Positions 4,692 to 30,396 of a stretch of DNA of 39,333 nt are shown in pieces. The position numbers were made by a program, and so were the translations under genes. Source of the DNA: a virus; the IMG/VR virus record IMGVR_UViG_3300009151_000158, positions 1 to 39,333 of that record; one strand, written 5' to 3'. The notes under the pieces were generated by a model. It had not been told where the DNA came from and did not search any database. It saw only the letters and a list, made by a program, of their open reading frames with translations. Position 1 is the first letter of the stretch. Each line of letters opens with the position of its first letter.

Positions 4692-4707
4692 AAAATTCTC
4701 GTTGTAC

Positions 4708-4715: not shown

Positions 4716-4719
4716 AAAA

Positions 4720-6964: not shown

Positions 6965-7585
6965 TTAAATTGTTACTAAGTTAGTCAGACTTTGAATCCT
7001 AACTGTGTAATCTATTTGAATCTGTCTATTTAAACTCTTTTGAACCGGGTGAAATATCACATGGGTCAATAATCTGGTAATAATATTACCATTAACATCT
7101 GCACCATAATTAGCAAGAAGTCCTAATTCATCAAAGATATAAGAACTATCTGTTTGGGTACTATTGTCAAATGCTGCTTGCCCTGAAGGTTCGCCGTAAT
7201 CTAGCAAACATTGCACTAAAATATCAGTATAAACTTTACCAGTAGTATGATTTACTGTCATTTTATTGCGGGTAGGATCTAAATTGAAAACACTTGTGTC
7301 ATCTACGATTTTTGCGTAAGTTTGATTGTAAAGTGCTGCATTTTGTCCGGTTACGTTTGGGGGTAGATAAGTGATAACCCCGGTATCCGAGACACTTGCG
7401 CCGCCATTACCAAACGCCATTTGGTATATTTCCCCATACCCTCGGCTACTTAGTGTGTCAGCAATAGCTTCTGACATGGTTTCATAGTTTATAGCGTTTT
7501 TCTTATCTACAAATATTTCCCCGTTATTAGGATCATAGATTTTGATAAATCCTTCTATTTTATATGATAGTGTTATTACTGACAT
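6965..7585 (-). CDS. Virion structural protein, probably baseplate-associated
   Basis: This is a 206-residue protein. The segments DKKNAINYETMSEAIADTL (27-45) and YQMAFGNGGASVSDTGVITY (54-73) are conserved in T4-like aquatic phages, where the protein is annotated only as structural. The C-terminal strand-rich part (HVIFHPVQKSLNRQIQIDYTVRI) looks like an interaction surface. Its ATG overlaps the stop of the 48-aa gene (TAATG), and it lies between the giant protein and the tail fibre, where T4 keeps baseplate periphery genes such as 8-11. A link between baseplate and fibre is a plausible inference; I cannot match it to one T4 protein. Confidence 0.7.
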   Translation of the reverse strand: MSVITLSYKIEGFIKIYDPNNGEIFVDKKNAINYETMSEAIADTLSSRGYGEIYQMAFGNGGASVSDTGVITYLPPNVTGQNAALYNQTYAKIVDDTSVFNLDPTRNKMTVNHTTGKVYTDILVQCLLDYGEPSGQAAFDNSTQTDSSYIFDELGLLANYGADVNGNIITRLLTHVIFHPVQKSLNRQIQIDYTVRIQSLTNLVTI

Positions 7586-7731
7586 TAATTATCGCCTCGC
7601 ATTTGTATCAAAACTTCATTGGTTTCTGGGTCTGTTATCTTTAAACTGGAAGAAAAATAGAAGCCACCTAATTCATTGGGTTTGGCCGCTGGCTTCTCGG
7701 GTGTTTTGTTTTCTTCTAGTTTTTCATTCAT
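7585..7731 (-). CDS. Small protein, 48 aa
   Basis: This short gene has an ATG at 7729-7731 and a stop at 7585-7587. The product begins MNEKLEENKTPEKPAAKPN, a charged, proline-rich and probably unstructured half, then GGFYFSSSLKITDPETNEV, which looks like a small beta hairpin. It fits exactly into the gap between the giant gene (13 nt upstream) and the 206-aa gene, whose start overlaps its stop as TAATG; such an overlap supports a real, coupled gene. No clear ribosome binding site is visible, so it may depend on ribosomes finishing the giant gene. Function unknown; a small baseplate accessory or chaperone is possible. Confidence 0.7.
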   Translation of the reverse strand: MNEKLEENKTPEKPAAKPNELGGFYFSSSLKITDPETNEVLIQMRGDN

Positions 7732-7744: not shown

Positions 7745-10700
7745 TTAACTTATATCCGTTCTTAAGAAAATTGCTCCCTGAGTGTACGCAATCTGTAACG
7801 GATCTCCCTCTACTGGGTTATAAATTCCGGGTATTGGATTCCATGTACTTTGATATAAAACGTCTGACATTCTATTATTAGGTATTAATCCAAATACTTC
7901 TGTATACAATGGAATATAATTTTGTTCCCCTGTACCATTCGTACCCCTGATTAGTTTAGTTACGGTATTAAGTGCTAAATTGCATTCACCAAACCCAATT
8001 TGCTCTCCGTTAATGTACAATAATCTACCTTCAACTGAAGTGATTGTCAAATCATCCCCGGTAGTAACTTGAGCAGAAATCTGCAATATTGGAGCAGTAT
8101 CTACAATAATTATTTTGTAATTATTAGAATTGACTTCGGTAGCTGTAGTGTTGTTATACACAGTCAAATGACATATAACGTTTTTATTAGATGATAGTCC
8201 AATATTATACTTACCGTCAATTATTGAAGGGGTGATTACATTTTGAACAACAGTATCAGTGATGCGAGATATATCATTTAAGTAAATTGTTTGATCAGTA
8301 TATGACAATGATCTAGTTAACCAAGTTCTAGTTTGAACATTTGCTCGGTAAACTGCGGCACGATTGGTTGTACTGACATTTAATAAATAAACTTCTTCAT
8401 TTGGTGTTGCAGTTGGCATCATACTGGTTATTATGATGCTATCACCAGTAACAATAGTTGACAATATACTTAGGTTGTTATTGGCATTTAGTTTTAGCGA
8501 TGATGATGGAACACGATAACCATTGATAGTTACCCACAATCTGTCTACATTCACTTGCTCAAAATCACTATCAATTGTAAATATTCCGTCTTTCCAAACA
8601 TAACCACCGGATATATAATTAGATGCAAATATTACTGGATAATTAATTGCATTTAATGCAGGATTGTATGGTTCTGAATATAAATCAAATACCGTGCTGC
8701 TTATTATTTTAGCATAATATGTATTGTTGTTTAATTGAATAGACCCCAATGTTCCGTCAATACGTACTAGTGCATTTTCTGTTAAATTATTGTTTATACC
8801 GGTTGTCACACGTATAGCAGGTGACCCGCCCATGTATCCCTGAATATTATCAGATGAATTTGTCAAATTAATCAATGTTCCAAATTCGTCAGCAATAGTA
8901 AAGTCAGTTAAATTAAGTATATCTTTAATAAAATACACTTGACCTGTTGTATCTATTCCACCTACATTAGCTAGTAACGCTTGTCCAGTACCACTTCCAG
9001 TTGTTGCCGCAGTAAAGATATCTCCTACTGCATAAACTACACCAACTGTACCTGCTGTTGTGTTCCATTGAAGTTGAGTGGTTCCGATTAATGTAGTAAT
9101 TTGATATATCTTTCCTACACCAAATGAACCTGCAGCAAATATTGGTGCTTTAAATATTATATTTTGATCTACCACTAATGAAGTAGTGCTATCGCAACTT
9201 ATATAATCACTTGCATCAGTACTGTTAACGTTGACTGTTGCAGCTGGAGGAGTAATAGAATTATTAATATACACGATATTAGCAACAGTTACTCCATTAA
9301 CAACCCCTGTCATTGTCCCAGTATCAGTAGTTACGACTGTAGGCAAACCACCTAATTGTGTAGATACTGTAAAATCAGTAGAGCTTAAAATTTCAGTAAC
9401 ATAATAAGTTACACCTGCAATTAATCCACCTAAAGTAGGACTGTTAAATATTATTGGATAATTCAACAATAAGCTAGCAGTTGTGCCTGAACCCAATGTT
9501 AAGTAATTTAATTCTTGGTCAAACAATACTATTTCAGGACTATCTTCGTCAAATGTATACGTGTTGGGCGAATTTTCGTCAAAAGAAGCCACACTGTGTA
9601 CGGTATTACTTACTGTGATTGTTGTTACAGTAGAACCAGTTGAACCAGTAACACCATATTGTGTATTAAAATATTGACGTTCAGTTAAATTATATGATGT
9701 AACTGCAATAGAACTATCAAGTGCAGGAGGACTATTAAACAATATTGTATTTGTTACTGCACTAATAGTGTATGCTGATGCAGTCTGACGTATGCCATTT
9801 ATTTCTACAATAGCACTAGTAGTATTAGTATCTCCTACATAATTATCCAAGTAGAATAATGAACTTGACCCGTTTCCTGCAAATATCTGCACTTGAGGAA
9901 TAGTATAACCGTACTGTATAGGATATGTTTGTCCAAACAAGCTGTATGATATATAGTGTTCTGTAACGTTAAAGTTATTTGCAAATATTAGCGCAGCAGT
10001 TATTCCGTTATCTGCTATACCAATAGCAAAATCATTAGTTATTAAAGTTGCCCCACCGGTGGCATTAGTCAATACTAGTTCACTTCCACCTACTGTTTCA
10101 GAAATAGTAAATTCATTATTATCATATATAGTTTTAATATAATAGATTTGATGAGGAACAATAACTCCACCAAAGATTGTATCACTAAACACAATAGTAG
10201 TGTTAGGGATAAAAGAACCGGTAGAATTAGTTGTTATGGTATTAGTAATAGCTTTTGTTTTGAATACCGATGCAAGTGTTCCCAATACTAATTGAGTTCC
10301 GTTATCATATACTGCAGGGGGTGTCCATACTACACCCGTACCCACTTGAATAATAGCAGTCATTGATCCAACGGCTGTGGTTAATTCAAAGGTTTCTCCT
10401 GCTGTACCAGTGGTTGAATTGTAGTATAGTGATACTGTAATTTTATTAGAAATTCCGCTTATAGATTTAACATAATAAATTTGGTCTTCAACTATGTTAC
10501 CAAATACTGCGCCACTGAATGTGATAGGACTATTTAACACAAAATCAATAACACTAGTGCATGTTATAGCATTGCTTATTCCATCAGTAGCGGTTGCAAG
10601 TATTTCAATTGGCTCAGTAGTTGGTCTTATTAGTCCAGATCCATTATATATATCTGCACTATAATTTGCATTTACATAAATCTCTTGGAAACCAGTAATT

Positions 10701-13700
10701 AAATTTAAACGAACGGGGTCAGTTTCAGTATTTGCTTTTACTAATTGATCACCGTTACCAACTTCATAAACATCAATTCGTAATATATTTGATACCCCCT
10801 GCGAAACAAACACTAGCGGGGTGTTTAGTATAACGAGTTTGTTTATCCAATCAATTGCGTAATCAATATTTTCATATATTGTTGTACTTACACCAGTTGT
10901 GTAATCAATTACAAATACACTTAATTGTGCTGGGGTTGTTACTATATGAGCAAAACTATAATCAGTTTGCGAACCTGATGTTGGTGCGATTTCTTTAGAA
11001 ACTACGTTATAACCAACATGTTGGTATATAGTTTCATCCCAATTTGTTCCGGGACGAGTAGCTACTGTCATCATAATGGTGTCTGAGACAACACCCGGTA
11101 CCATTTCTTCAGGACCATAACCTGAAAGAAAAGCATCACCTTGAATATTGTACGCTGATGGAGCAGTTTCAAACACTGCGGACGCTGTCCAAGTTATCGC
11201 ATCACTACTTATTAAAATAGTATTATTATAACCAACTGTAACATACTGTGCTAAATCATTATTCCAAACAACACTAGTTAGATCTTGAGTGACTCCTGAA
11301 GTTTGTGATGTCCATGTTATACCGTTAATGGGTGCTGTTTTTATAGTTCCATTTTTTCCAACTACTACAAACAAACTGTTGTCATTATCCCATATGATAT
11401 TGTTTAAATCATCTATGCCACCTGAAGATTGTGCAAACCAAGTTACAGCATTTGTACTAGTAAATACGACACCATTGTTACCAACTATAACTATATTTTC
11501 ACTATTTGCAGCGATTGAATTAAATCCATAATTTGTAGCAGTAAATGTCACTTGATTCCAAGTGTATCCATCTGTGCTTGTAAATATTATGCCAACATCT
11601 ACTGCAATGCCATTATCTAAATATTGACCGGCACCAACAGCAACAAATCCAGTAAATCCAGTAGTGCTTACATAAGCAACACTGTTTAATTGATTAGTTA
11701 ATGCACTGCTTGTAAATTGATAACGCTCTGTCCAACTGTATAAATCAATTGATGATATGATATTACTACCAACTGCTACATATACACCATTATGATATGC
11801 TGCACTATTTAAGAACGATGAAGGAACAATCAATGATGATAAATCAAAGTTAGTTATATCATATGGAGTACTATCATACGGAGTGAATGCACCATTAGTA
11901 ATCCAAACAAATCCGTTATCACTAACAAGCAACGGGGTTGCACTGTTAGTAGATGTTAATACATATTGACTTCCTGCAAATAATATATCAGTTATACCAA
12001 TTGATTGATTTGTTAACTTAGTAATAGTCCAATTATTAGTATCAACACTAGCAGAAATTGCTGAGTAGGTAGCTGTATCTGAACCTGCTAGGTAAGTTAT
12101 ACCATTCCAAACTATAGTTTTTAAATCAACACCCGTAACTGCAAATGGTTGATCAATAAGAATAGTATCTAATATAAATTCGTCTGCCGGGGCAAATGCA
12201 TTACCTAAATAATTGCTATTTGGATAAGTTATACCGTCTACTAGTTGAGTTAAATCTACACCGGGCATATTTACTGTAGGTTGATAGTAACCTATAATTC
12301 TGTCTAGTGCATTTAATCTTCTATTACCTGAATCTAATAATTCCCATTTGCCTAAAATGAATTCGTTATCGTTGTTACTTATGATACACTGATATACTTG
12401 TTTGTTATATTTTACAATACTACTACTAAAGAAGAACGGCTCTGGTAACAACGCATAGTCACCTGACTTAGCCATTGTCATTGATCCAGACGCATTTGTA
12501 GTAATATCAAAAACAGTTCCACCTAAAGTTTCTGAAATTGTGACAGTAGTAGTAGTTGGTTTAGACAATACATAATATGTTTGACCCAACGTGACTCCAC
12601 CAAATACGTTACCAGTAAACACTACCAGGTCATTTAAGTTAAAGCTAGTTGAACTAGTAACAGTAAATCTGTTATTAGCTGCTGTTGCAATTGTAGCAGT
12701 AGTTGAGGTTGTACCCACATACGGGAAGTTTTGACCAGTAACTGGAGCTGTTAAAATAGAATTACTATAAACAGCCATTTGATTTTCTGATATTACTTTT
12801 AAGTAATAGTTAGTTACTGTTCCTGCAGGAGTACCACTTGCGATAGCAGAAGTTACTCCACCAATAGAATCAATAGTCAACACAGTTAATAGTAAATCGT
12901 TTGATGTGGTAGTTCCTCCAATTGAAGTTCCCAAAATAGTTATAGTATTATCAACTGCGTATCCTTCACCAGCCAATTGAATTATTGTTCTATACCCGCC
13001 CAAAATGTAACTTACATCAAATATTGGGGCAGTAACTGTAACTTGGGTGAATACTACTGCACCTGTCGCATTAGTTAATGTATCTGCGACTTCTATGTAT
13101 GGTTCACCTGAACCGTACATCGTTCCGCTGTCAGTATTAGTAGTATAATCAGTGCCACCGGGTACTTCTGAAATAGTGAAATCAGTTGCAGAAACAAGCT
13201 GCTTTACATAGTATATTACATTTAGTGCTACTTGTCCAAGAGAGGTACCACTAAATATGATTGGCATGCCCTCATATAGTACATTAGTATCAGCACACAC
13301 AAGATAATTTGTTCCGGTCGTAGAAGTAACTGTTATTGATGTTATGCCAGAATCAGTTATAGTATAGTACGGGGTTGCTGCTAATAACCCACCAATGTTA
13401 CTTGCTACCTTAAATCTCATGCCAGTGTATATGTTAGTAATTCCACCGGTATTACTTAATAAACAAACTCTGTTTACTGTAGATAAAGTTGCAGAAATTT
13501 CTCTAGTTGTCAAATTAGAAACTGTTCCAGAAACACCAGTATATTGAGATGATGTTTCATATAATGTAAACTCTTGCCCGGTTACTTGACCAGGACTTAT
13601 TGGTACTGCTACATTTAATGTCATACTACCAGTACCAGTTGATAATGGTACTGCATTTATTTGACTAGTTACCGTGAACGACCCGGTATCAGTTGTCAAT

Positions 13701-16700
13701 ATTACAGCACTTCCGTTAACTGCTGTAGCAACAGAGAATGTTGTGTTACCACTGAATAATTCTCTTATATAATAAGTAGTACCTGCTACTATGTTTCCAA
13801 TAGTATTGCCCGTAAATATTATAGGTTCATTTACTGTTAATCCCAGTGTACTACTACAGGTGACTGAATTATTAGAAGATGATGTAGCTGTGCAAGTTAG
13901 TACAGTTGGATCGTTCACAGTAGACATGGTAAATGTCTGTGCGTCAATAACGGTTGTTACATAATATTTTTCATTGGCTACAACATCCCCAAATACATTA
14001 CCGGTAAAATATATAGGAAGACCTACATAAAATCCAGTTGTTCCGGCAAGTCCGGTTGCAGTAAGCAACACAGTTACGTTGTTTGTGGTTGCTGTGGTTG
14101 CAGTTGCATTTCTTATAGCGTCATAGTTGACTGTTAATACTGCTTGGTTAGTCAACTGACCAACAAACATTGTTAATCCTGCTACAGGAACCGTTGCTGT
14201 GCTAAGTGTAAACGTAGCGCCCGGGTTACCATCAACATCTACTGTGCTAGAAATTGTAAATCCAGTATCTTCTAGTACAGATGTAGTTGGGTTTGGTAAC
14301 TTTACTAGAGATTTTACATAGTAGGTAGTGTAATTAATTAGATTACCTACTGCTGCTCCCTCAAACTTTACTGGCATACCCACATAGAAACCAATAGTAG
14401 AACCTATATTGTCATTGACATCGGCTCCGCCTACAGTAGGGTTAATACGTATAGTATTTGGATATAATGACGCTGATCCATAAGTTTGAATAGTATTTCT
14501 AGTTCTTGAAGACCAAGTAAGTGTCTGTTGATTCGCTACATCTAAAATTTCAAATGCTGCGCCGTCAGCACTCGCTAGTATTGAACTAATTGGTGGTTGA
14601 GTGCTTTCTAATGTTATAGCACTAGATGAAACCTTACTACTGTTATTAAATGATCCTGCGTAAAACGCACCATAGAATCCGGCTGCTTCCCAAGGTATTA
14701 CTTGAGAAGTATATGATGTTCTGTCAAAGCGTAATGCTATAATATTTTCTCTTGTTGGAACTGAACTAGTGATGCAAGATGCAACTGCCCCGATACTAAA
14801 GTTTTGGGTTCCGCTTCCTGCATTAACTAAAACAATACGATTTTGATCATTTAACGCATCTAAATAACTGCTATAAAGTGCAATTATTGGATATGGTGTT
14901 ACCTCTAAGAGGTTTACATAATATTTTTGTCCATCAATTAATCCGCTAATTTTAGTTGAATCTGCCGCCGCAGTATAAACAATCAAATCACCGGTCTGTA
15001 ACAGTGGTGAAATTAATTGTATAGTATTAGATACTATGCTTACCTGGGTGCTATTTACCGATACAACAAGTGATGGGTCAATTATGATTTGGGGTAATAC
15101 AGCATAGCCTTCACCCGGGTCAATAACATTTACACCAATGACTGCACCCAAACTCATTATGGGTTCTAACTGTGCAACAACTCTTGGTATCGGATATGTG
15201 TTTAAATCAATATATGCTGTTACTCTAGGAGGTTCAGCGTATGCTCTACCGCTATTTAGTACTAACACCGCAGGTAAATCTATGAAAATATATTCACCGG
15301 GTATATGAACAGATACAGTAGTGCCGTTTACTCCGCGTGATAACCCGGTCAATTCATTTGTCGCCAAGTTTCTACTGTTATAACCAATCTCTTCGGTGCC
15401 AATTAATATAGTACCGACTACAGGGAAACCTGATACATTATCTACAAAACATGAACTTGAATTCAATGAAAGATAAGAAGTTAAAACTGAAATTTGATAT
15501 CCATTTTGTCCTATAATACTTAATCCATAGTTATTAAACCACTGACTATAACTAACATCTTGCCATATAGGGTCAGTATACAAATATTGATCAACACCGG
15601 ACGGATTTGCATAAACTAATTGAGGGGACACAAATTGGTCAATTGACGAATTATATTTGGCTGGCAAATCAAAATCAGTAATGTCACCTTCGTATACATT
15701 AATTCCGGTATACTTAAACAAGAAATCTTTTATTACTACATGATAAGGTTTCACTTCATTTAAATATCCAGATAAAAAGTCTTGATTGTCTGACTGGAAT
15801 ACTTCAATTGGACGTAGTTCACGTATAGTATGTGATACATCTAAGAAAGATGTTTTGTTTAACCACGGTAAGTAATTTTGATTTTCTACAGTTTCACTTT
15901 GGATGTAATCAAATAACAATATTAAACTTTTGTTTCTGAATATTAATAATTCACCTGTGTAAATTTCTTCGTTTAATGCACGAACGATATAGCGTGTTTC
16001 AACACTTGGGAATTCATCATATGGAGTAGTGTCAAAGAAGTTGTCACCAAATCCCAATCTAGCACTAGAATAATCCCATAGATAGCTACTGAATTCAATA
16101 GTTCCATTTTCTAAACCAATACGAGTCCATACACCGGCGCCATCATAACGATATGTTTCTGAATTTCCATTACCATTTGTAGCAACAGTTACAATTGTTC
16201 CGCTTGCTACATTTAGAGTAGACAAGTCAGCGTATATAGCAACTTGAATTGCAGATTTGGTATTATTACTATAACCGGGTGCCCACCAGTTAATTAGACT
16301 CCAATAAGCAGCGGTATCATAAAATTCACCTGATGAATACAAAAATTGAGGATTTCTTATTTCAATAATTGGGAACTGTGATAATATTGCGTTAGCATAT
16401 TGTAAATAATTCTTCAATGCACCAAATCTATTATAGAAGAAACTTTGTCTTGGCCTAGCAAGTACACCAGACTGAACTAATTTTGGTAAGAACGGGTCAG
16501 GAACCACTGCGCCTGAATTGTCAACTCCACACATGCTGTCTAGCATTCTATTGTATAATCCAATAGGAGAAGTAATTCCTACCGCGGCATGATTTTGATA
16601 TCCAGCTGCTGAACCAGGTAGTCCATCTAAGAAATCATCTGCATAATTAGCACGAATCAAACTATATTGATTATGCGCCACGTCATCATTTGTACCGGTA

Positions 16701-19700
16701 GCATATCCAATGTGTAGTACTGTATCAGTGGCATTGATGAAATCAAAGCAATTGTACAAGCCAAAAACACTTGGTAGTAATGGTGTGAAATAACTAATAC
16801 CCGATGCTTGTGGGTTAGCTATATAACCTTCTAACGTTGAGTCTGCTAAAGTTTTTCCCAAACGTTCAAATATTATATTGGTATTTCTAGCCCAAAAGTA
16901 ATAAACAGGAGTAAGTGTACCTTCGGCATTTATGATACTCTCTATCACATAGTTATCAATATTATAAGGCGTTCCTGGACCTTGATATTGTGCAGGAGGA
17001 ACATTGCTTGCTATCCAAGAATATACTGTTACTGTACTTCCCGGAAACACTCTGCCCCAATACTTGCTATTATATACAATATCATTTTGATGATAATTAA
17101 TAAAGCGAGAGTTAGCTGTGTTGAACCAAAGCTGACCAACTTTATCAGCTACCCACACTAAACCAGATTGAGTGTTACCTGAATTGTTATATCCTGCAGG
17201 ATCAACATTTGATACAACATCAATGTTTTCTGCTACTGCACCTAATAATTTTCCCTGAAGTGGATCAATATAATCTAAATTTTCTAATGTGTTATTGGTA
17301 GTTGCGCTAAACAATTGAATATTTGCAATTCCATTAATATCTACAATAGCAGATGAACTTCTATACACTGTCCAATCAGGATTGTTACTAGCACTAATAT
17401 AAGTTACTACCTGACCATTGGTATCATTCGCATTAGTAGTAGGACTAAAGTTAGTTGCGCCCACTACCACACGATTTTCATTAAAATCCAATGCTGAACC
17501 ATAGTAGGGTTGTGAACCGTAGTCTAGATCTTTTGCATTTGTACTTTGTGCATATACAAACTTACCTGGATTATCTAAATTTTCATTATACGCTGACAAA
17601 TAATCAAACATATATACTGCACCTGCATTAGTGAACGTATCTGTCCACTGAGTTGCATTATTGTCAAAAACAGTATCGTTATCTATCTCATCATCAGTAA
17701 AGTCAAATGTAGTTGCTGCATATCTAGTGCCAACTGGTGCACTTACTACGATTGATCCAGAAGTACCAAATTTAACGACAGTACCAAATTGAGTGCGGCC
17801 TTGTAAATGAGGGCTATTAATTTTTTGTGTTTGCTTATATAAAACTACACCCATCTCACCTAAAGTATCGCTATCTAATATAGTTAACGATAGTTTACTT
17901 CCAGCAACTCCAAGAGCAATATCAACCAATGTTATTATTAATTTTCCGTTAGTCGCTGCTGCATATACATTAATAATTGAACTTAAATTGATTGCGTTTG
18001 CTGCGGTAGTAGCATCACCAATTGGTAGTGTAACTTGAAACCCATTCAATAAAATTGTTCTAGGTGTAGTTATGTTACAGTTTGCTGTACCAATAATGAT
18101 ACCGTATTTTTCACCACCGTTGGTATATCTATGCACAGCACCTTCGTAGTTTTGTTCAGATAATTCAAACGGTGCTCCAACTAATATTTCATTTGCAAAT
18201 GTATTAGTATCAACACTTGTACCAAACTGTACACCAATTCTAGGTGTTTCTTCGTTAGTTAATGTCTGAGCTAATGTAAATTCACTACTACCTACATTTA
18301 TTATATCACCCGCATTTAATGTAGGGGTTAGCCCGCTATAGACATTTAATATTGACCCCACAACTGCATACATATTATCTTCTAATAGAGTTCCGTTAAC
18401 TGTTAGATACAACGGGGATATTTGACCGGTTGCGGTCATTGTTCCTGTAGAATTAGTTAATGTTAAAGTATCACCGTCTCTAGTCAATGATAGTGTAATA
18501 GTTGAACCAGAAATAAGTTTTACATAATATACTATATTAGCAGCTACTCCACCGTAAGGTGTGCCTGTAAATACGATTGGTGTTCCAGTAGCACCGTCAG
18601 TTAACCCTGATACACTTCCCAATGTAATTGCATTACTTGATATAGAATTTGCTGTGGTTGATAATGTTGATGGTGTAAACGCTAATTGGAATGTTAATGG
18701 AGTATATGCTTGGCTGCTAGTCTGTGCTTCAAAGTTTTGAGATGTTCTTGCAAAAATATATGTGTATCCATAATTCTCAATAGTAGTATCGTAATTTTGG
18801 TCGGGTGCGCCAACTACAACAGTGTCACCGTAGTAGTCAGTGACTAGTGAATATCCAAAATTATCTCCCGATACTAGTCCCGCAACAGTTAAAATATTTA
18901 CGAGTTCATACAATTTGGTTATAGTTGATTGACGATATACATAAACTCTATTACTTTCAATATCAGAAATGTATAGCCATTTCTTATCACCGGACATACT
19001 TGTTGAACTACCCCAATTTCCGATAGTATTTGGAGCAACAATAGTTTGAAGTAATGAAACAGTGTCAACTAGTGTATTAGTAATTAGTTGATAGACATAA
19101 ACATTAGGTGTTATTGTAGGTTCAGATATAACAAACAAATCATCGGCATATGAAATATATGAACCAAATGATACTCCGTGTGCAATAGTTTGTACTACAC
19201 GATAAGAATCTGTAATATTGTCGTAGGTATAGCGATACACTTCACCTGCTGCACTATCACCTATTAGGTAACCCATTTTAGAAGTATATGCTACTGCACT
19301 ACCAAATGTTTGACTGTTATTTCTTAAAATCTCTTTGTCATATTGATAGTTTAAAGTCTTACGATAAACAGCCCAGCTACCATCGTTATTGGTATCAACC
19401 CATACTTTTAATTTATTAAATTCGTTGTCTAACAAAGGTAAGTTAATTATTTCAGGTGCAGTAGCAACACGCTGACTTTGCATTCTGAAACCAATACCTA
19501 AACCAGTTATATTAATTGTGTTAGGATCAAGTGATAAGTTAATAATAACTCTAAAAGGATCTACAACACCGGCTACAATATAATAATTATTGATACTTGC
19601 ATTAAAATTGGCAATAGCAAAAATTTGATAAGTTTTTAATGTATGTGCTTGACCAAAAGTAATAGTTACCGTGCCATTTAAATTGTTCTGAGCATTAACT

Positions 19701-22700
19701 ATAGAACCCAAGCTAGCAGGGGTATATACTTGCCAGTCAGCCAAATAATTAGCTAACCAAACGTAATCACGCACATAAAATTGACTTATTGGAATTACAG
19801 TACCGCTAGAATTTCTAGCAGTTGCCAATCCAGAGTAAAAATAACTAGCCATTTTAACGTCATTGTAATTTACATATCCGGCTGTAGGATACAACGATGA
19901 CAATTGAGTATTAGATATAGTAGGTAGAATATCTACTGTATTGATTGGTCTACCATAGTTGAACACTGAGTACAATGGCACTTCTTGCTGTACCCCTTCG
20001 TTATATACTCCAGCAGTTAGTCCAACTATTGACGGATTACCAGTCAAGTCTGGTTGACTTAATCTGAACTCTATAAAATTATTGTTTAATACTCCGCCAA
20101 ATTCTCCTGACTTAATAGCCCAGTTTTCATATATGTCGTAGTTAATTCCACCCTGTGGTAGATTAGCACCTTTAAACGCACTTGCTGCATTTAAGGTACC
20201 CTTCTCTTTTATCATGTTTTTGTAAACATTGACTTGAGTTATATCTGTTAAATCGGCCAATGCCATGTAGTCTCTTGGACGATATCCAATTAAACTGAAA
20301 CTTAGTAAGTCTGCATCGTTTTCCAAGTTAGCTTTATCAGTATCATAATATAGTGTGCTTTCGTATGAACGAGTACTGCTGTTAGGTAATAATCCTTTTT
20401 GAATTTCGGCATAAGGAGTTTCTTTCCACTCACGCTCATTGAATACTTCTTGTGCTTGAATGATACTTAATGCTGCCCAATATCTATTTTTATACCGAAC
20501 AATAGCCCCTTTGGTGTATTTTATTTCCTTGACCCACTCTGTTATATTATCTTGGTTTAAGATAAAGCCGGCAGCATCAACAGTACCGTTCCAGTCAGCA
20601 GATTTTGCGCCACGTAAATAAACTCTATACTGGCGTAAGCCTGTAACTAAGTTATAAATTATATCGTTGAATAAAGTTACGTTGTTAAAAACAATACCGT
20701 GTTCAATGTTACTGATATTAAATTGTCCATAAGAAATACTATCACCCACATTCAACGGTGTTGCTGCAAACGCAGTATTTTGACGTAAGATTAATAAATC
20801 CCTAGATTGTATAGGGTATAAATTTTGATTTAGTACAAAATTAGTTTCTCTTAGTGTCAATGGTTGAACAATATGACTATCTTTATCAATACTTAACGTA
20901 TTGGCTGCTGGATTAATTGTAGCAATACTTCCAACTTCCCAGCCAATTTGCGCCCAATATAAAAATTCGGCAACCATTTGAGGCCAGTTGATTGGGATAC
21001 CGTTTTCAATTTCTTTAAATTTTACCCCTTGACTTTCTAAATATTTTCCATAACTATTCAAAAAGGTTGCAACTTGTTGCACATTATAAAATTCAGTACC
21101 GTAAGGAATCAGTGCAACTTTGTCGTAGAAATCTCTAGCTAATACTGCTGATAAGTTTTCTATTGATACCTTATCAGTATTATTATTAATCTTGGGAACT
21201 AGTGTAGTAAAGTACGCATTGGTCTGCGAATTACCATATACTTTAAAGCCGTTTTCTGTAATTTGAATAGCCACCGAACTATAAACAATTCTATCAAACG
21301 GTTGATTTTCATATAATAATACCCCGTAACTTTCGTCAGGTATTAATAAAGAACTGTTGTTGCTATTTGCAGAACTCTTTTCAACATAGAATTTCAATAG
21401 ATTTTTATCACTAAATCCAGCCAAACGATAGACTAAACGAACATCTAAATTATCTAACAATGTAGTAATGTTTGCAGTTGCATCAATACCAACTTGTTTT
21501 TCAAAATCAACAATCCAGTTAATGTAACTGGTTGCAGGAGTACCATTTCCGTAAATTGCTACATCAGCGACTACTAAATGACTTCTATCATTTACTAAAT
21601 ATTGATTAAATTCTACGTTGTATTTGTAATTGTCAACATCAACACCTAAGTTAAAAAACTCTGCTGGTTTAGTCAATGCTAATATACGCATCAAGTCAAA
21701 TGGCCATGTGCTACTTCTGCGATAGCTGAATTCTGCGGGACCTACATCGCCAACTTTCCAATCACGGTTAAATGTATTTTGATTATAGTTACCCAATATA
21801 GAAACAAAAGGTGATACTAAATTACCGGCTGAATCAACTGGTAGTACTTTTAATAATTGAGGGCGAACAAATCTAGGCAATACTATAGGATTACCATTGT
21901 TCCAATCTATACCCGCTGCTAAATCTCCCCATAGCACTAAGTTTTCACTAGTGTAGGGTGCTGCACCATATCTAGCAGTCCACCAACTTGGTTGCTTAGT
22001 AAATCCTAACATTTCCCAGGGAGTTACATTTGGGGTAGATGTATCATAATAGTATAGATATAATCCTCTAAAATAACCTTGTTCAATTGGTTGTTGATTT
22101 ATCTTGTTACCACTGTCTCTGTAATTGAAAGTATATTGATTATTTCTATTATATACTTGTCTCTTGTAATCAATGCGGTTTTCACCAACCCAATTTAAAA
22201 ATGATTCAGAATATATTTGTAAAAATTCATCGTATGAATAACCAGTGTCTCTGAAAAATCCCGGTAACACTTCATATAGTTGTACCGGAATAACGTTACT
22301 TAATTTTAAATTATTGTAAACACGAGTCTCGTATTCTAATAAAACTTGATCTCTATAATCATTTAACTGACCGGTTGTTGTGTTATAAGTACCGTATAAT
22401 TTATTGTATGAGCCATCATGACCTACAATAAAGTATGTTTCTGGAGTATATGCAGTATCAAGTGTAATGCTTGGTATAGTAGCAGGGAACAAACCCAATT
22501 TAGTGGGAGTATTTGGTACATAACTACCGTATGTTTGATTATACTCGTTGATTGTAATAATGTCATTGGCTAATAAATCTAAAGTAACAGTCAATGATGG
22601 ACTGTTAGTACTTACTGTATAATCAATCCCAGTAGTCAATTGTGTTACTGAAGTAACACCGTCGGTTGTTCTTGTTAAGTATACTAATACACCATAATAA

Positions 22701-25700
22701 TTTGATGTAGTAAAATTATATATTCTGCTCAACGGATAGATACTAGTGTCTAATGTGTTAGCAAATGAATACGTATTGGAAATGAACGGTGCCTTTGACG
22801 GAACCATGTCGCTCCAGAAAAACGACTGACTATCAGATTTAGATGCTGCTATCTTATCCATTGCCCCGTCAAAAATTTGTGCCGGCGTAACCGCAGTTGC
22901 GTATGGTGTTTTATTAACTGTATCAATCAATAAGTTTTTAAAATTTACATACTGTCTGCTGTTGTATAACAACGAATTAAACAAATTGTGATTTTGTTTA
23001 CGCAAGAAAGTTCCGGGGAGTACCAAGCTGGCACTATTTTGAATAATTCTAGTTCCCCATGGAACCAAGTTACCCAAATCACGATAATTGTTTGAACCAA
23101 ATACAATACCAGTTGTATTTGGATTGTTGAAGAATATACTTTGATATTGTCCTCGTATGTCACCGACACTTGCTGTAGTGATATCTTCATTCAATGGATT
23201 GTTGCTTAAGTTAGTAGGTACTTGATAATAACCAGTTGCGCTAACTTGGTCGCTCAAAACAAGAATTTGAATTACTGTGCTAACTGCATCAATTGTAGGT
23301 ATTAATACCTTAGTTGAATTTTCAGTTACTGTTACTGTGTATAGAGTTGAATCAAGATATGTATTATTCACATATACTTGTACAGTAGGCCAGTTAGTTG
23401 AACTAGAACTAACCGGAGCAACATCACACGTAAACTCATTTACCGGTGATACAATGGTCCAGTCAAAATCAAAAATTTGATATTGTACGCTGGGTGAAAC
23501 CGCAGTTTGCCAACCCAATTCTCTTACAAAGTCTACTCGTGATTGATAGTTATAGACATATCCGGTGTTTACTTTTTGTGTTATTGGTGTTGTTCCTGTA
23601 ACATAATTAAACGTTTGAGAATTCAATGTTACGTCAAAACTTATGTCACCCACGTTAGCTACTGCACTATAGCGAATAGGAAATCCTAATACAGAATCAT
23701 TTGCACCAATACCCAAACCATATGAGAATAATGTACTACCAATAAATGATGTACCTACATACACTAATTTGTCGCCAAAACTTATCCCGTTGTGGTCAAA
23801 TATATCAAATCTAGGTGCTTGATTAATTTGTGTTTTTTGTTGCCCTGCATACCAGTTAACACCATTAAAGTAAAAATCTTTACCCCTGTTATAGTAACCG
23901 CGATAGATTGCAGTTTGCTCATCTGGTAAAACTGCTCCATCTTCTGCTTCAGTCAATGTAATTACTGGAATAGAAGATGTGCTAATTGTAGAAAAGCGAG
24001 AAACATAAATTTTGTTTCTTACTTCTATGTTTGTATCTGCTGCGAATACAACTCTTGAACCATCAAACAATGAGTAATTGTCTAGGGTAGTATCCGCAGA
24101 TACTACTGACGCTACTGAGGTTGCAGCAATAATTGATTGGTTATCCCATGATACAGTTATTACAGTATTATATCCAACAGTAGTTACATTGGTTATATAA
24201 GTAACTCTAGGCAATACTTCTGTACTATCAGTGATATATTGACCTGCTTCAAACAATCCAAAAACATCAGTACTAGGTATTGTAATAGTAGTGCTATATG
24301 GATAGATAGAGGTAGACATTGTACCACTACCATTAACCAATACAAATGCACTACCCTGTTTTGTAGTAGATATTGTTACAGTATTACCTGATATACCAGT
24401 AATATAATATTTGGTTCCTGAAACAATATTACCAAAAACACTTCCACCAAATGTTATCGTATCGTTTACAAATAATCCGTTAACGGAACTTAATGCCACT
24501 TGATTAACTAATGAATACGTGTTGGTTGCTGTTACTGTAGTTACAGCACCTGTTACAGGGGCAATCACTGCATTATATGCAGTGTATCCAGCAGTATCCG
24601 GATAGTAGTTAGCTTGTCCTGCAACTAGACTAAATGCATCTGTTGTTCGTGTATCTATAAAGTCTATTGGATTTTTACCCAAAGCCCCTGCATCAAACAT
24701 TCTAAGATTTGGATAGAATTCAATGATGGGCCGTTTTGCTTTATTTGCGTCTACAGTATATGTAGAAACCAATAATGGATTATTATTGTATGCTGCGCTT
24801 GCATTAATAACATCAATATGAAACCAACGATTGCTTCTTGACCAGGCATTTCTATTAATTGCATTTCTGGCAATTGTGATATATTCGGGTGTTATTGGTA
24901 TATATAGATTGGAATCATAATTACCCACATCGTATGCAGTAGTATCGTATGGTATGTATGCACTTTCTGAAAATTGACCCGGTGAGACTAGTGTTGCAAC
25001 TGGTATTAACTCAATTGCAGTTCCTACACCTTCAACATAGTATTCAACATTATTGAAACTTGCGGGAAATATATCTCCCTGAAATAAAACTTTTAAACCA
25101 TTGGTGAATACTACTCCATTAGATGCAGTATAATTAGTTTTTCCTAAAATATCAGTTATAACATTAATTTGATTTGTTTTATTATTTTGAATTAAATTAA
25201 TAATCCCTACTTTGTTAGGAGAAGTACCGTCTTGGTAATACAGTGTGTCAAGTATAGCACTGTTATAAGGAACTAGAGAAATAAAGCCTGCAGTATTTCT
25301 ATAAAATCTTCTGTTTATCCATTCAGTTCCAAATGAAGGTATTATGTTTTGATTTGTAGGGATAACTCCTGCAGGGGTTAGCTGAATTATAGGGTTATCA
25401 ATTTCACCTATTAGAGTAATAGTATAAAAATTAGCATTTACTTCGCTATAAAAACCACCTTCATAGTTATTATAATTTGCAGAAGATCCGGGATAGTCAG
25501 TTGCTTCATTATATGCAACGCCACCGTCTTGATCGTACAATGTTTGATCGTAAAACTTTTGAACATACCCGGATTCGTTTTCAACTCCTGTGTTATAAAA
25601 CATAACGGTTAATCCGTCTAATGCAGTTACTCCGTCAATACCCCCAATAGAATTCACTAAAGCACCGTTAACTTCACTAAAAGGTAAAGTAGATACTACT

Positions 25701-26473
25701 CCAACTGGATTATTGCCGGGAAAATTATATTCATCTAATGCATTTTTTTTCGGTACTGTAAAAGTTACAACACCTTGTTCAGCACCATTATTTGAAACAC
25801 CATATACATCACGTGTCTGTACGTTTGGTTGGGTTGGACTTAGTCCGGTTACGCCCGGGGCTCCCTGAATCCAAAACTGAGAGTTTTGATTTACAGCAAA
25901 AGTATAAGTACCTCCTCGTAACAGAGTTAATGTAGGATTAGCACTAGGTACAGGTTGTGTCTCTGATGAGATGAGATAGTAATTAGGATTGCTTTGAACA
26001 ATGTAGTTGGCAGTATTGTATACAATACTTGATGAGACAATTACACGTTCAGGACCCGTTGGCAACCAATAATATTGATTAAAATTAATTATCTTATCTA
26101 AATCAGTAAATGAATCCCATGAATAAAATTGGCTAGTAAATAATCTACTATTATTTTCAGTTATACCACCCTCAAGATTTAACCCATCAACTATGCCAGG
26201 ATAACTAATAAAATCATTAGCAGTTGTTTCGTTTTGTTTTAAGAATACAACACCCGGATCTAATTGATAATCTTTTCTAGTCTTATTAGGTTCAGTTACA
26301 TAATAATCATTAGCATTTACACCGTATCCAAATCTACTACCTACATAACCCTGAATCTGTTTAGTATTGGGTTGTGCTACCAATTGATCAAGCGTTGCTG
26401 CTAGAAATTGACTATTGGTTGTGGTTTTAAATATTTCTGGTAAAAAATCTAATGTTCTAATTCTTGTTGCCAT
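7745..26473 (-). CDS. Giant modular structural protein, 6,242 aa (gp7/gp8 position)
   Basis: This is a single uninterrupted frame of 18.7 kb. Residues 1-130 (MATRIRTLDFLPEIF, YVGSRFGYGVNA, FYSWDSFTDLDKIINF) form an N-terminal region that I recall from large structural proteins of aquatic T4-like phages. Approximate layout: first copy of a ~70-residue beta module near 660-720; a long non-repetitive core to about 2300, with a carbohydrate-binding-like segment near 1980-2020; a seven-blade FG-GAP-like propeller near 2385-3030; a conserved segment near 3320-3365 (GVLARPRQSFFYNR); a dense module array near 4020-5945, split by a second carbohydrate-binding-like segment (~4670) and a BNR/Ycf48-like propeller (~4770-5105); and a C-terminal domain with an EQIGF...LIRGTNGT motif. 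It directly follows gp6, where T4 has gp7 (1,032 aa) and gp8. A baseplate periphery or adhesin scaffold is inferred. No signal peptide or enzyme motif was recognised. Confidence 0.85.
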   Translation of the reverse strand: MATRIRTLDFLPEIFKTTTNSQFLAATLDQLVAQPNTKQIQGYVGSRFGYGVNANDYYVTEPNKTRKDYQLDPGVVFLKQNETTANDFISYPGIVDGLNLEGGITENNSRLFTSQFYSWDSFTDLDKIINFNQYYWLPTGPERVIVSSSIVYNTANYIVQSNPNYYLISSETQPVPSANPTLTLLRGGTYTFAVNQNSQFWIQGAPGVTGLSPTQPNVQTRDVYGVSNNGAEQGVVTFTVPKKNALDEYNFPGNNPVGVVSTLPFSEVNGALVNSIGGIDGVTALDGLTVMFYNTGVENESGYVQKFYDQTLYDQDGGVAYNEATDYPGSSANYNNYEGGFYSEVNANFYTITLIGEIDNPIIQLTPAGVIPTNQNIIPSFGTEWINRRFYRNTAGFISLVPYNSAILDTLYYQDGTSPNKVGIINLIQNNKTNQINVITDILGKTNYTASNGVVFTNGLKVLFQGDIFPASFNNVEYYVEGVGTAIELIPVATLVSPGQFSESAYIPYDTTAYDVGNYDSNLYIPITPEYITIARNAINRNAWSRSNRWFHIDVINASAAYNNNPLLVSTYTVDANKAKRPIIEFYPNLRMFDAGALGKNPIDFIDTRTTDAFSLVAGQANYYPDTAGYTAYNAVIAPVTGAVTTVTATNTYSLVNQVALSSVNGLFVNDTITFGGSVFGNIVSGTKYYITGISGNTVTISTTKQGSAFVLVNGSGTMSTSIYPYSTTITIPSTDVFGLFEAGQYITDSTEVLPRVTYITNVTTVGYNTVITVSWDNQSIIAATSVASVVSADTTLDNYSLFDGSRVVFAADTNIEVRNKIYVSRFSTISTSSIPVITLTEAEDGAVLPDEQTAIYRGYYNRGKDFYFNGVNWYAGQQKTQINQAPRFDIFDHNGISFGDKLVYVGTSFIGSTLFSYGLGIGANDSVLGFPIRYSAVANVGDISFDVTLNSQTFNYVTGTTPITQKVNTGYVYNYQSRVDFVRELGWQTAVSPSVQYQIFDFDWTIVSPVNEFTCDVAPVSSSSTNWPTVQVYVNNTYLDSTLYTVTVTENSTKVLIPTIDAVSTVIQILVLSDQVSATGYYQVPTNLSNNPLNEDITTASVGDIRGQYQSIFFNNPNTTGIVFGSNNYRDLGNLVPWGTRIIQNSASLVLPGTFLRKQNHNLFNSLLYNSRQYVNFKNLLIDTVNKTPYATAVTPAQIFDGAMDKIAASKSDSQSFFWSDMVPSKAPFISNTYSFANTLDTSIYPLSRIYNFTTSNYYGVLVYLTRTTDGVTSVTQLTTGIDYTVSTNSPSLTVTLDLLANDIITINEYNQTYGSYVPNTPTKLGLFPATIPSITLDTAYTPETYFIVGHDGSYNKLYGTYNTTTGQLNDYRDQVLLEYETRVYNNLKLSNVIPVQLYEVLPGFFRDTGYSYDEFLQIYSESFLNWVGENRIDYKRQVYNRNNQYTFNYRDSGNKINQQPIEQGYFRGLYLYYYDTSTPNVTPWEMLGFTKQPSWWTARYGAAPYTSENLVLWGDLAAGIDWNNGNPIVLPRFVRPQLLKVLPVDSAGNLVSPFVSILGNYNQNTFNRDWKVGDVGPAEFSYRRSSTWPFDLMRILALTKPAEFFNLGVDVDNYKYNVEFNQYLVNDRSHLVVADVAIYGNGTPATSYINWIVDFEKQVGIDATANITTLLDNLDVRLVYRLAGFSDKNLLKFYVEKSSANSNNSSLLIPDESYGVLLYENQPFDRIVYSSVAIQITENGFKVYGNSQTNAYFTTLVPKINNNTDKVSIENLSAVLARDFYDKVALIPYGTEFYNVQQVATFLNSYGKYLESQGVKFKEIENGIPINWPQMVAEFLYWAQIGWEVGSIATINPAANTLSIDKDSHIVQPLTLRETNFVLNQNLYPIQSRDLLILRQNTAFAATPLNVGDSISYGQFNISNIEHGIVFNNVTLFNDIIYNLVTGLRQYRVYLRGAKSADWNGTVDAAGFILNQDNITEWVKEIKYTKGAIVRYKNRYWAALSIIQAQEVFNEREWKETPYAEIQKGLLPNSSTRSYESTLYYDTDKANLENDADLLSFSLIGYRPRDYMALADLTDITQVNVYKNMIKEKGTLNAASAFKGANLPQGGINYDIYENWAIKSGEFGGVLNNNFIEFRLSQPDLTGNPSIVGLTAGVYNEGVQQEVPLYSVFNYGRPINTVDILPTISNTQLSSLYPTAGYVNYNDVKMASYFYSGLATARNSSGTVIPISQFYVRDYVWLANYLADWQVYTPASLGSIVNAQNNLNGTVTITFGQAHTLKTYQIFAIANFNASINNYYIVAGVVDPFRVIINLSLDPNTINITGLGIGFRMQSQRVATAPEIINLPLLDNEFNKLKVWVDTNNDGSWAVYRKTLNYQYDKEILRNNSQTFGSAVAYTSKMGYLIGDSAAGEVYRYTYDNITDSYRVVQTIAHGVSFGSYISYADDLFVISEPTITPNVYVYQLITNTLVDTVSLLQTIVAPNTIGNWGSSTSMSGDKKWLYISDIESNRVYVYRQSTITKLYELVNILTVAGLVSGDNFGYSLVTDYYGDTVVVGAPDQNYDTTIENYGYTYIFARTSQNFEAQTSSQAYTPLTFQLAFTPSTLSTTANSISSNAITLGSVSGLTDGATGTPIVFTGTPYGGVAANIVYYVKLISGSTITLSLTRDGDTLTLTNSTGTMTATGQISPLYLTVNGTLLEDNMYAVVGSILNVYSGLTPTLNAGDIINVGSSEFTLAQTLTNEETPRIGVQFGTSVDTNTFANEILVGAPFELSEQNYEGAVHRYTNGGEKYGIIIGTANCNITTPRTILLNGFQVTLPIGDATTAANAINLSSIINVYAAATNGKLIITLVDIALGVAGSKLSLTILDSDTLGEMGVVLYKQTQKINSPHLQGRTQFGTVVKFGTSGSIVVSAPVGTRYAATTFDFTDDEIDNDTVFDNNATQWTDTFTNAGAVYMFDYLSAYNENLDNPGKFVYAQSTNAKDLDYGSQPYYGSALDFNENRVVVGATNFSPTTNANDTNGQVVTYISASNNPDWTVYRSSSAIVDINGIANIQLFSATTNNTLENLDYIDPLQGKLLGAVAENIDVVSNVDPAGYNNSGNTQSGLVWVADKVGQLWFNTANSRFINYHQNDIVYNSKYWGRVFPGSTVTVYSWIASNVPPAQYQGPGTPYNIDNYVIESIINAEGTLTPVYYFWARNTNIIFERLGKTLADSTLEGYIANPQASGISYFTPLLPSVFGLYNCFDFINATDTVLHIGYATGTNDDVAHNQYSLIRANYADDFLDGLPGSAAGYQNHAAVGITSPIGLYNRMLDSMCGVDNSGAVVPDPFLPKLVQSGVLARPRQSFFYNRFGALKNYLQYANAILSQFPIIEIRNPQFLYSSGEFYDTAAYWSLINWWAPGYSNNTKSAIQVAIYADLSTLNVASGTIVTVATNGNGNSETYRYDGAGVWTRIGLENGTIEFSSYLWDYSSARLGFGDNFFDTTPYDEFPSVETRYIVRALNEEIYTGELLIFRNKSLILLFDYIQSETVENQNYLPWLNKTSFLDVSHTIRELRPIEVFQSDNQDFLSGYLNEVKPYHVVIKDFLFKYTGINVYEGDITDFDLPAKYNSSIDQFVSPQLVYANPSGVDQYLYTDPIWQDVSYSQWFNNYGLSIIGQNGYQISVLTSYLSLNSSSCFVDNVSGFPVVGTILIGTEEIGYNSRNLATNELTGLSRGVNGTTVSVHIPGEYIFIDLPAVLVLNSGRAYAEPPRVTAYIDLNTYPIPRVVAQLEPIMSLGAVIGVNVIDPGEGYAVLPQIIIDPSLVVSVNSTQVSIVSNTIQLISPLLQTGDLIVYTAAADSTKISGLIDGQKYYVNLLEVTPYPIIALYSSYLDALNDQNRIVLVNAGSGTQNFSIGAVASCITSSVPTRENIIALRFDRTSYTSQVIPWEAAGFYGAFYAGSFNNSSKVSSSAITLESTQPPISSILASADGAAFEILDVANQQTLTWSSRTRNTIQTYGSASLYPNTIRINPTVGGADVNDNIGSTIGFYVGMPVKFEGAAVGNLINYTTYYVKSLVKLPNPTTSVLEDTGFTISSTVDVDGNPGATFTLSTATVPVAGLTMFVGQLTNQAVLTVNYDAIRNATATTATTNNVTVLLTATGLAGTTGFYVGLPIYFTGNVFGDVVANEKYYVTTVIDAQTFTMSTVNDPTVLTCTATSSSNNSVTCSSTLGLTVNEPIIFTGNTIGNIVAGTTYYIRELFSGNTTFSVATAVNGSAVILTTDTGSFTVTSQINAVPLSTGTGSMTLNVAVPISPGQVTGQEFTLYETSSQYTGVSGTVSNLTTREISATLSTVNRVCLLSNTGGITNIYTGMRFKVASNIGGLLAATPYYTITDSGITSITVTSTTGTNYLVCADTNVLYEGMPIIFSGTSLGQVALNVIYYVKQLVSATDFTISEVPGGTDYTTNTDSGTMYGSGEPYIEVADTLTNATGAVVFTQVTVTAPIFDVSYILGGYRTIIQLAGEGYAVDNTITILGTSIGGTTTSNDLLLTVLTIDSIGGVTSAIASGTPAGTVTNYYLKVISENQMAVYSNSILTAPVTGQNFPYVGTTSTTATIATAANNRFTVTSSTSFNLNDLVVFTGNVFGGVTLGQTYYVLSKPTTTTVTISETLGGTVFDITTNASGSMTMAKSGDYALLPEPFFFSSSIVKYNKQVYQCIISNNDNEFILGKWELLDSGNRRLNALDRIIGYYQPTVNMPGVDLTQLVDGITYPNSNYLGNAFAPADEFILDTILIDQPFAVTGVDLKTIVWNGITYLAGSDTATYSAISASVDTNNWTITKLTNQSIGITDILFAGSQYVLTSTNSATPLLVSDNGFVWITNGAFTPYDSTPYDITNFDLSSLIVPSSFLNSAAYHNGVYVAVGSNIISSIDLYSWTERYQFTSSALTNQLNSVAYVSTTGFTGFVAVGAGQYLDNGIAVDVGIIFTSTDGYTWNQVTFTATNYGFNSIAANSENIVIVGNNGVVFTSTNAVTWFAQSSGGIDDLNNIIWDNDNSLFVVVGKNGTIKTAPINGITWTSQTSGVTQDLTSVVWNNDLAQYVTVGYNNTILISSDAITWTASAVFETAPSAYNIQGDAFLSGYGPEEMVPGVVSDTIMMTVATRPGTNWDETIYQHVGYNVVSKEIAPTSGSQTDYSFAHIVTTPAQLSVFVIDYTTGVSTTIYENIDYAIDWINKLVILNTPLVFVSQGVSNILRIDVYEVGNGDQLVKANTETDPVRLNLITGFQEIYVNANYSADIYNGSGLIRPTTEPIEILATATDGISNAITCTSVIDFVLNSPITFSGAVFGNIVEDQIYYVKSISGISNKITVSLYYNSTTGTAGETFELTTAVGSMTAIIQVGTGVVWTPPAVYDNGTQLVLGTLASVFKTKAITNTITTNSTGSFIPNTTIVFSDTIFGGVIVPHQIYYIKTIYDNNEFTISETVGGSELVLTNATGGATLITNDFAIGIADNGITAALIFANNFNVTEHYISYSLFGQTYPIQYGYTIPQVQIFAGNGSSSLFYLDNYVGDTNTTSAIVEINGIRQTASAYTISAVTNTILFNSPPALDSSIAVTSYNLTERQYFNTQYGVTGSTGSTVTTITVSNTVHSVASFDENSPNTYTFDEDSPEIVLFDQELNYLTLGSGTTASLLLNYPIIFNSPTLGGLIAGVTYYVTEILSSTDFTVSTQLGGLPTVVTTDTGTMTGVVNGVTVANIVYINNSITPPAATVNVNSTDASDYISCDSTTSLVVDQNIIFKAPIFAAGSFGVGKIYQITTLIGTTQLQWNTTAGTVGVVYAVGDIFTAATTGSGTGQALLANVGGIDTTGQVYFIKDILNLTDFTIADEFGTLINLTNSSDNIQGYMGGSPAIRVTTGINNNLTENALVRIDGTLGSIQLNNNTYYAKIISSTVFDLYSEPYNPALNAINYPVIFASNYISGGYVWKDGIFTIDSDFEQVNVDRLWVTINGYRVPSSSLKLNANNNLSILSTIVTGDSIIITSMMPTATPNEEVYLLNVSTTNRAAVYRANVQTRTWLTRSLSYTDQTIYLNDISRITDTVVQNVITPSIIDGKYNIGLSSNKNVICHLTVYNNTTATEVNSNNYKIIIVDTAPILQISAQVTTGDDLTITSVEGRLLYINGEQIGFGECNLALNTVTKLIRGTNGTGEQNYIPLYTEVFGLIPNNRMSDVLYQSTWNPIPGIYNPVEGDPLQIAYTQGAIFLRTDIS
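8640..14420 (-). repeat. Array of ~70-aa beta modules inside the giant protein
   Basis: About a dozen degenerate copies lie here, and two more lie upstream near 18430-18650 and 24310-24500. Each copy has a hydrophobic strand, the signature FTGxxFGxxxxxxxYYV, a strand like TxFTISxxxGG, and an end resembling LTxxTGTM. Copies are clearest near 13905-14070, 13665-13900, 13110-13320, 12470-12690, 10350-10590, 10040-10250 and 9310-9510. They differ widely in DNA, so the array is old and not prone to slippage. Boundaries are approximate. Confidence 0.75.
11160..12160 (-). repeat. BNR/Ycf48-like propeller repeats in the giant protein
   Basis: The encoded region (about residues 4770-5105) repeats a pattern of roughly 40 residues: a strand like NxIxWxxxxxxFVVVG, then GTIxTS and a Trp-containing turn (TWTSQTSG, TWFAQSSG, TWNQVTFT). 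This is the hallmark of BNR/Ycf48-type beta-propeller blades. At least five blades can be read. No catalytic role can be assigned. Confidence 0.65.
17390..19320 (-). repeat. FG-GAP-like seven-blade propeller in the giant protein
   Basis: Seven segments in order follow the pattern (F/W/Y)G(S/T)xφ...VVVGAP...GxVYxY: FGSAVAY, FGSYISY, WGSSTSM, FGYSLVT, FGTSVDT, FGTVVKF and YGSALDF. Each is followed by a GAP-like or related turn and a tyrosine-rich strand. That is the number of blades of an integrin-alpha-type propeller. One copy of the ~70-aa beta module is inserted between blades four and five. Confidence 0.65.
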
Positions 26474-29946: not shown

Positions 29947-30396
29947 TTACTGCAAAACTGCAATATTAGTAGAACTATTAAAGAATACGTTTAATAATAG
30001 TGCTTGATTGAAGGGAGCAACAGCCATCTCTACTTCAAGCAATATTCCAAGTTCTTGCGGGTATGCTCTTATTGAATTTAATATCAATCTAGGGTCTAAA
30101 TTAGCGATTCTACGTATTTCATTTTCTATTTGAAACTGTACGTCTGCGGTGTTTGGTTCAAATATGAATGACCACAATGTAGTTCCATATTCGGGTTTAC
30201 CGACTTTTTCACCCTGTCTAATGTTTAATGAATTAACAAAATCTCGTAGTACTAACGGGACATCTACTAGTCTAAATTTATTTCCAAGCTGAACTGGTTG
30301 GGTAGTTGAACCCACTCCACCGCTAGTACCTGTAGGTAAATTAGTAGACCTAGGTACATTTGTGTTTATAGTGCTGAATCCGATATATGAGGGCAT
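29947..30396 (-). CDS. 25: Baseplate wedge protein gp25 (GPW/gp25 family)
   Basis: This is a 149-residue protein. Residues 45-110 match the GPW/gp25 family: LVLRDFVNSLNIRQGEKVGK, then PEYGTTLWSFIFEP (68-81), a helix IENEIRRI and the PRLILNSIRAY strand. In contractile tails gp25 joins the gp6 pair and primes sheath assembly; despite the old name it is not a lysozyme. The first ~38 residues are Gly/Ser/Thr/Pro-rich and probably flexible. It starts 7 nt after the gp5 stop. gp25 placed directly before gp6 differs from T4, where gene 25 lies elsewhere, but is common in other contractile phages. Confidence 0.92.
   Translation of the reverse strand: MPSYIGFSTINTNVPRSTNLPTGTSGGVGSTTQPVQLGNKFRLVDVPLVLRDFVNSLNIRQGEKVGKPEYGTTLWSFIFEPNTADVQFQIENEIRRIANLDPRLILNSIRAYPQELGILLEVEMAVAPFNQALLLNVFFNSSTNIAVLQ

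Follow-up and report, generated by a model that had tools for sequence, protein, structure and literature searches.

In phage T4, the gene that follows gp6 in the baseplate operon encodes gp7 (1,032 aa). In cyanophages, gp25 and gp6 are followed by a giant protein of 3,274–6,422 residues that is often named 'baseplate wedge initiator' (the S-SRM01 protein of that name has 3,895 aa, and in ACG-2014b the giant after gp6 reaches 6,422 aa). The gp7-type protein of phage XM1, gp17, connects a gp6-type dimer to the tail spikes (PMC10457771); with 242 residues, it shows how wide the size range in the gp7 slot is. Tentatively structural proteins of up to 7,694 aa have been reported from metagenomic huge phages (PMC7162821). 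They match the protein described here in size class and tentative annotation, and may include members of its family, phrog_10938, but the main text gives neither their anatomy nor their family. Two phrog_10938 proteins of RaK2-like jumbo phages have been detected directly: virion mass spectrometry yielded 21 unique peptides of CBB_236 (7.7% coverage; PMC5259590), and the PA5oct record flags gp355 as detected by ESI-MS/MS.

We analysed a stretch of 39,333 nucleotides from IMG/VR virus record IMGVR_UViG_3300009151_000158 (hereafter, the window), in which a protein of 6,242 residues is encoded directly after gp6. Larger proteins of this kind are on record, since both the ACG-2014b protein, in the same slot, and the largest of the huge-phage proteins exceed it. 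We found no description, in the literature searched, of the anatomy of the phrog_10938 family or of its enlarged form in the clade to which the window belongs.

The reading frame and its neighbours

The giant gene is an uninterrupted minus-strand frame with an ATG start (Table 1), and stop codons are abundant on the plus strand across the same interval. At ~35% GC, stops would make up ~7% of random codons; hence, 6,242 open codons did not arise by chance. The encoded protein has a mass of 680 kDa, a pI of 4.4 and a cysteine content of 0.24%. The initial annotation had the coordinates of the frame right, as it did the placement directly behind gp6: in the direction of transcription, the giant begins 28 bases past the gp6 stop, in an operon ordered gp53, gp5, gp25, gp6, giant.

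Table 1. Position of the giant gene, its neighbours and the parts of the encoded protein in the window
Feature	Position	Strand	Remarks
Giant structural protein gene	7745..26473	minus	phrog_10938; full length conserved
gp6-like baseplate wedge gene, 1,130 aa	26502..29894	minus	phrog_10646, E 3.8e-252
gp25-like baseplate wedge gene	29947..30396	minus	PF04965
gp5-like baseplate hub/lysozyme gene	30404..33757	minus	phrog_13211
gp53-like baseplate wedge gene	36295..36612	minus	phrog_7145, PF11246
48-aa ORF directly downstream of giant gene	7585..7731	minus	
206-aa gene in gp8 place, function unassigned	6965..7585	minus	phrog_11259; kept in relatives
Core block 1, residues 1-150	26024..26473	minus	length constant, 149-155 aa
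Variable insert, residues 151-430, cupredoxin/YHYH-like beta fold	25184..26023	minus	233-557 aa in relatives
Core block 2, residues 431-620	24614..25183	minus	length constant, 189-193 aa
Variable insert, residues 621-760, one ~80-residue module (645-723)	24194..24613	minus	
Core blocks 3 and 4, residues 761-2240	19754..24193	minus	
CBM5/12-like (chitin-binding type 3) module, ~residues 1978-2020	20414..20542	minus	borders by eye
FG-GAP-type beta-propeller insert, residues 2241-3000, repeat module at 2601-2685	17474..19753	minus	
Core block 5, residues 3001-3660	15494..17473	minus	649-706 aa
C-terminal region, residues 3661-6242 (~2,600)	7748..15493	minus	11 of 13 ~80-residue modules
YCF48-like beta-propeller stretch, ~residues 4961-5080, propeller probably 4900-5100	11234..11593	minus	

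A search of IMG/VR with residues 1301-2600 of the giant as query returned 93 relatives. Among them, a longer contig, of 63 kb, holds a copy of the giant that is 100% identical. Taking whole records, the frame is unbroken in 48 of 49 related contigs, at 4,933-7,757 codons, with a few of the 48 intact frames reaching the contig end. The sole exception (L068) has one frameshift, at its positions 14790-14800, when compared with the intact frame of L058, and its flanks on both sides of this point are still ~88% identical to L058. We completed twelve contigs by fetching their missing 3' part, giving 13 full-length proteins including that of the window, which range from 5,842 to 7,756 aa and are colinear from the first residue to the last. 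Start, stop and downstream genes are kept among them. We then compared the window gene with a relative that is ~75% identical (L014) in ten windows of 624 codons. In all ten, dN was 0.16-0.29 and dS 1.2-1.9, with dN/dS of 0.08-0.24 all along the chain; these ratios are approximate, because dS is near saturation. This pattern indicates that the protein sequence is constrained by purifying selection over its whole length.

The initial annotation had named a frameshift or an assembly join within the frame as one of the findings that would refute its reading. The comparison of contigs at the DNA level rules out both for the window, given the identical copy, the open frames in nearly all relatives, their colinearity and the substitution ratios. 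We consider it very unlikely that virions contain no chain of 6,242 residues because the frame is an assembly product or its protein is cleaved or only partly translated. The split frame of L068 speaks for this view, and proteolysis lies beyond what DNA can exclude, but the conserved ends and downstream genes and the selection along the entire frame argue against this view. Moreover, repeat copies within the giant are only 26-47% identical as proteins, and are thus too different to have confused the assembly.

The 206-aa downstream gene gave no profile match to gp8, and we dropped that identity for lack of support in the profile comparison. A search of a 349-kb relative with phrog_977 (gp8) was without a match, but it carries no weight, since the gp8 controls were equally silent. 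The 48-aa ORF (7585-7731) is kept in at least eight relatives, and PA5oct and Atu_ph07 have small ORFs in this position too (gp356 and gp179, respectively). The 48-aa product ends in a sequence (LKITDPxTxEVLVxxRGDN) similar to that with which the 206-aa protein begins, like a truncated duplicate. Farther downstream on the minus strand, 5686-6933 encodes a protein of 415 aa that is likely to be a self-cleaving tail spike or fibre, having close to its C-terminus a Peptidase_G2 autoproteolytic (intramolecular chaperone) domain (E 4.8e-07). Two adjacent similar genes at 3738-5676 (minus strand; 317 and 318 aa) both match the same place in relatives and represent a tandem duplication; another contig (L022) likewise has two copies. 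Adjoining the tail genes at 542-3383 (minus strand) are genes of 269, 251 and 317 aa that by eye resemble nucleotide-sugar or glycosyltransferase-type enzymes; none had a Pfam match at 0.001.

A family shared with RaK2-like jumbo phages

When the giant was searched in five pieces, the first three matched phrog_10938, annotated 'virion structural protein' (E 3e-80, 2e-114 and 3e-52). A tblastn search of phage records placed the relatives in RaK2-like jumbo phages and their neighbours; members include CBB_236, PA5oct gp355, RaK2 ORF070, 121Q gp582, Atu_ph07 gp180 and SCTP-2 gp140. The family gene lies directly 3' of a gp6-like gene in PA5oct, Atu_ph07, Phosso, RaK2, 121Q, Vibrio 2.275.O, XaC1 and CBB, and in SCTP-2 it directly follows a large gene in the gp6 position. 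No relatives of the giant were confirmed in bacterial genomes.

In addition to the slot after gp6, the window giant and its jumbo-phage relatives have a colinear core in common: blocks at residues ~1-146, 438-622, 755-1250, 1317-2240 and 3000-3650 (window numbering) align in the same order at 20-38% identity. They differ in size, since family proteins in jumbo-phage isolates have 3,323-4,555 residues and the window giant is ~1.4 to 1.9 times as long. We conclude that the giant is an oversized version, enlarged by repeat modules and propellers, of a structural protein that cultured jumbo phages are known to have, and that an uncultured clade has a phrog_10938 protein grown to between five and eight thousand residues. 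Judging by this homology, together with the detection of CBB_236 and PA5oct gp355 and the setting in a baseplate operon, the giant is very probably itself a virion structural protein. The initial annotation had said as much, and the homology that it feared, to a non-virion protein, did not appear.

Conserved core, variable inserts and repeat modules

Within the clade, the core segments keep almost the same length (922-938 aa for residues 1317-2240, the best conserved stretch), whereas those between them vary (459-1,345 for the segment 5271-5900). Scanned directly against Pfam, the window protein gave nothing above the cut-off, and the Pfam domains given here come from scans of each relative. 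PDB sequence searches, with profiles for the N-terminal and core parts and single sequences for the remainder, gave no convincing match, and two AlphaFold models were weak (mean pLDDT 49 and 62).

For the insert at 151-430, YHYH-named viral models were among the top structural matches, and cupredoxin-type PDB matches came at low probability only; laccase and other PDB matches of the N-terminal model were also of low probability and were discarded. The CBM5/12-like module was found by Foldseek (probability 1.0, E 0.065), and Pfam CBM_5_12 is reached by 23 of 46 relatives (best E 0.0012), though not by the window sequence alone. FG-GAP_2 was matched in 12 of 13 members (best E 8.4e-10). The site of this propeller (2240-3000) is an insertion hot spot, since its size ranges from ~230 to ~1,500 residues among jumbo phages: it is longest in Atu_ph07, whereas 121Q and PA5oct have only 230-260 residues there, too few for the propeller of the window. 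Near residues 4961-5080, the giant matches YCF48-like propellers (PDB 5ojr and 2xbg, E 7e-5), and PSII_BNR and DUF6242 were found in some members. The adhesin-like modules that the initial annotation had mentioned are present. They may point to carbohydrate or receptor binding by the giant, but glycan binding does not follow from the presence of propellers or CBM-like modules.

A module of ~80 residues recurs 13 times in the giant, and all but two of these copies lie beyond residue 3660. Relatives carry 10-20, and longer proteins have more of them (r = 0.85 for 13 proteins, kinship ignored). Neither the RaK2-like isolates nor the cyanophage proteins searched gave a match to the module. The shortest relative (L042, 4334-19108; ~4,930 aa) agrees with the others in its ends and downstream genes but is without parts of the C-terminal repeat region, making it a natural test for dispensable modules.

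We considered whether the giant might be a whisker or fibre-type protein of the tail or neck that merely has baseplate genes for neighbours. CBB has tail hairs of ~119 nm whose composition is unassigned, CBB_236 is in the virion, and propellers and repeat modules are fibre-like. However, the authors of the CBB study sought hair proteins among genes that GAP32 lacks, and the family gene is present in GAP32 and in RaK2-like phages generally; in addition, a large core of constant length is more in keeping with a scaffold than with a fibre. We judge the whisker or fibre assignment to be improbable.

The gp7 position and the proposed role of the giant

The initial annotation had raised the possibility that the giant is a gp7 homologue grown about sixfold. 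We found no support for this at the level of sequence or profile. Every block of the window family compared with T4 gp7, a protein one sixth the size of the giant, had a probability of at most 1%. Cyanophage giants have a segment in common with T4 gp7 (727-790 in T4; hhalign 86.6%), whereas a profile of this segment, which recovered T4 itself at 2e-47, had no match in the window or in ten relatives. A search of the 349-kb relative with T4 gp7 (phrog_964) returned none. We looked for the N-terminal helix-turn-helix of the (gp6)2-gp7 core bundle, as seen with XM1 gp17 (PMC10457771); residues 1-138 were modelled with short helices only, at pLDDT < 50. Remote homology to gp7 may nevertheless be hidden, because in control comparisons of gp6 profiles the jumbo-phage and T4 proteins were linked at only 34.5% (jumbo-cyanophage 99%, cyanophage-T4 99.9%).

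The giant could be a true gp7 orthologue that has diverged past sequence recognition, with a hidden helical segment in the (gp6)2-gp7 bundle and the rest of the chain added. The gene order gp25, gp6, giant parallels that of T4 gp6 and gp7 and that of the cyanophages, the 349-kb relative yielded no other gp7, and the jumbo and T4 forms of gp6, certain homologues, are themselves barely connected directly. Set against these points, no block matches T4 gp7, the segment common to T4 and the cyanophages is absent, and the model, although of low confidence there, is without a clear helix-turn-helix. We give orthology appreciable weight but think it rather doubtful. As there is neither a profile match nor the segment, and the weak gp6 control could conceal a remote homologue, we do not claim membership in the gp7 family, and say only that the giant likely works in the place of gp7.

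The cyanophage giants resemble the window giant in slot, size class and beta-rich modules, and have one short module in common with it, at 75% probability over 52 residues. This is what a clean alignment left of a 94% match between residues 3640-4100 and a cyanophage giant, which had come from a repeat-laden profile. A weak chain of matches (at most 1%) that led from residues 3273-3340 to gp7 by way of a cyanophage giant was dropped on inspection. The core blocks of the two groups are unlike. Separately, ~7 kb directly after gp6 in Synechococcus phage S-SKS1 (L095, 21287-28284) are unannotated and probably contain a giant structural gene.

Our preferred reading, which we hold with moderate confidence, is that the protein is a giant virion structural protein of the RaK2-like group, whose core sits on the baseplate wedge in the gp7 slot and whose variable parts face outward. 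Its operon position makes the tail baseplate the most likely location. One long chain would be made, as selection at the DNA level suggests, and would be built into the virion, by analogy with CBB_236 and PA5oct gp355. The argument of the initial annotation that so costly a chain must bring a strong benefit would hinge on the number of copies per virion. Core blocks 1-150, 431-620, 761-2240 and 3001-3660, ~2,500 residues that are in outline common to all relatives, would lie on the gp6/gp25/gp53 wedge and organise the baseplate periphery; a bridging role would be natural, since XM1 gp17 bridges the gp6-type dimer to the spikes. The inserts and the ~2,600-residue C-terminal region may project outwards and touch the host envelope or anchor fibres, as the types of module and the rapid change in length suggest. 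Length may be tuned by gain and loss of the ~80-residue module, consistent with the correlation between the two, such that two propellers and the repeat modules would form a length-adjustable array. A bolder version, which we regard as unlikely though worth stating, is that a wedge protein without gp7 ancestry took the gp7 slot in RaK2-like jumbo phages and, separately from the gp7-derived cyanophage giants, became a length-tunable, propeller-bearing array for host contact, of up to 7,756 residues, with ~80-residue modules gained and lost to adjust it.

Our analysis gives what was an anonymous giant frame both a family and an anatomy, in which a conserved RaK2-like core is combined with a fast-changing outer part. 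It also poses two testable questions: whether giants have evolved repeatedly in one baseplate slot, in cyanophages and in RaK2-like phages, and whether the length and modules of such giants track the host surface. Tractable cultured relatives are available in 121Q-type phages of E. coli, PA5oct and CBB.
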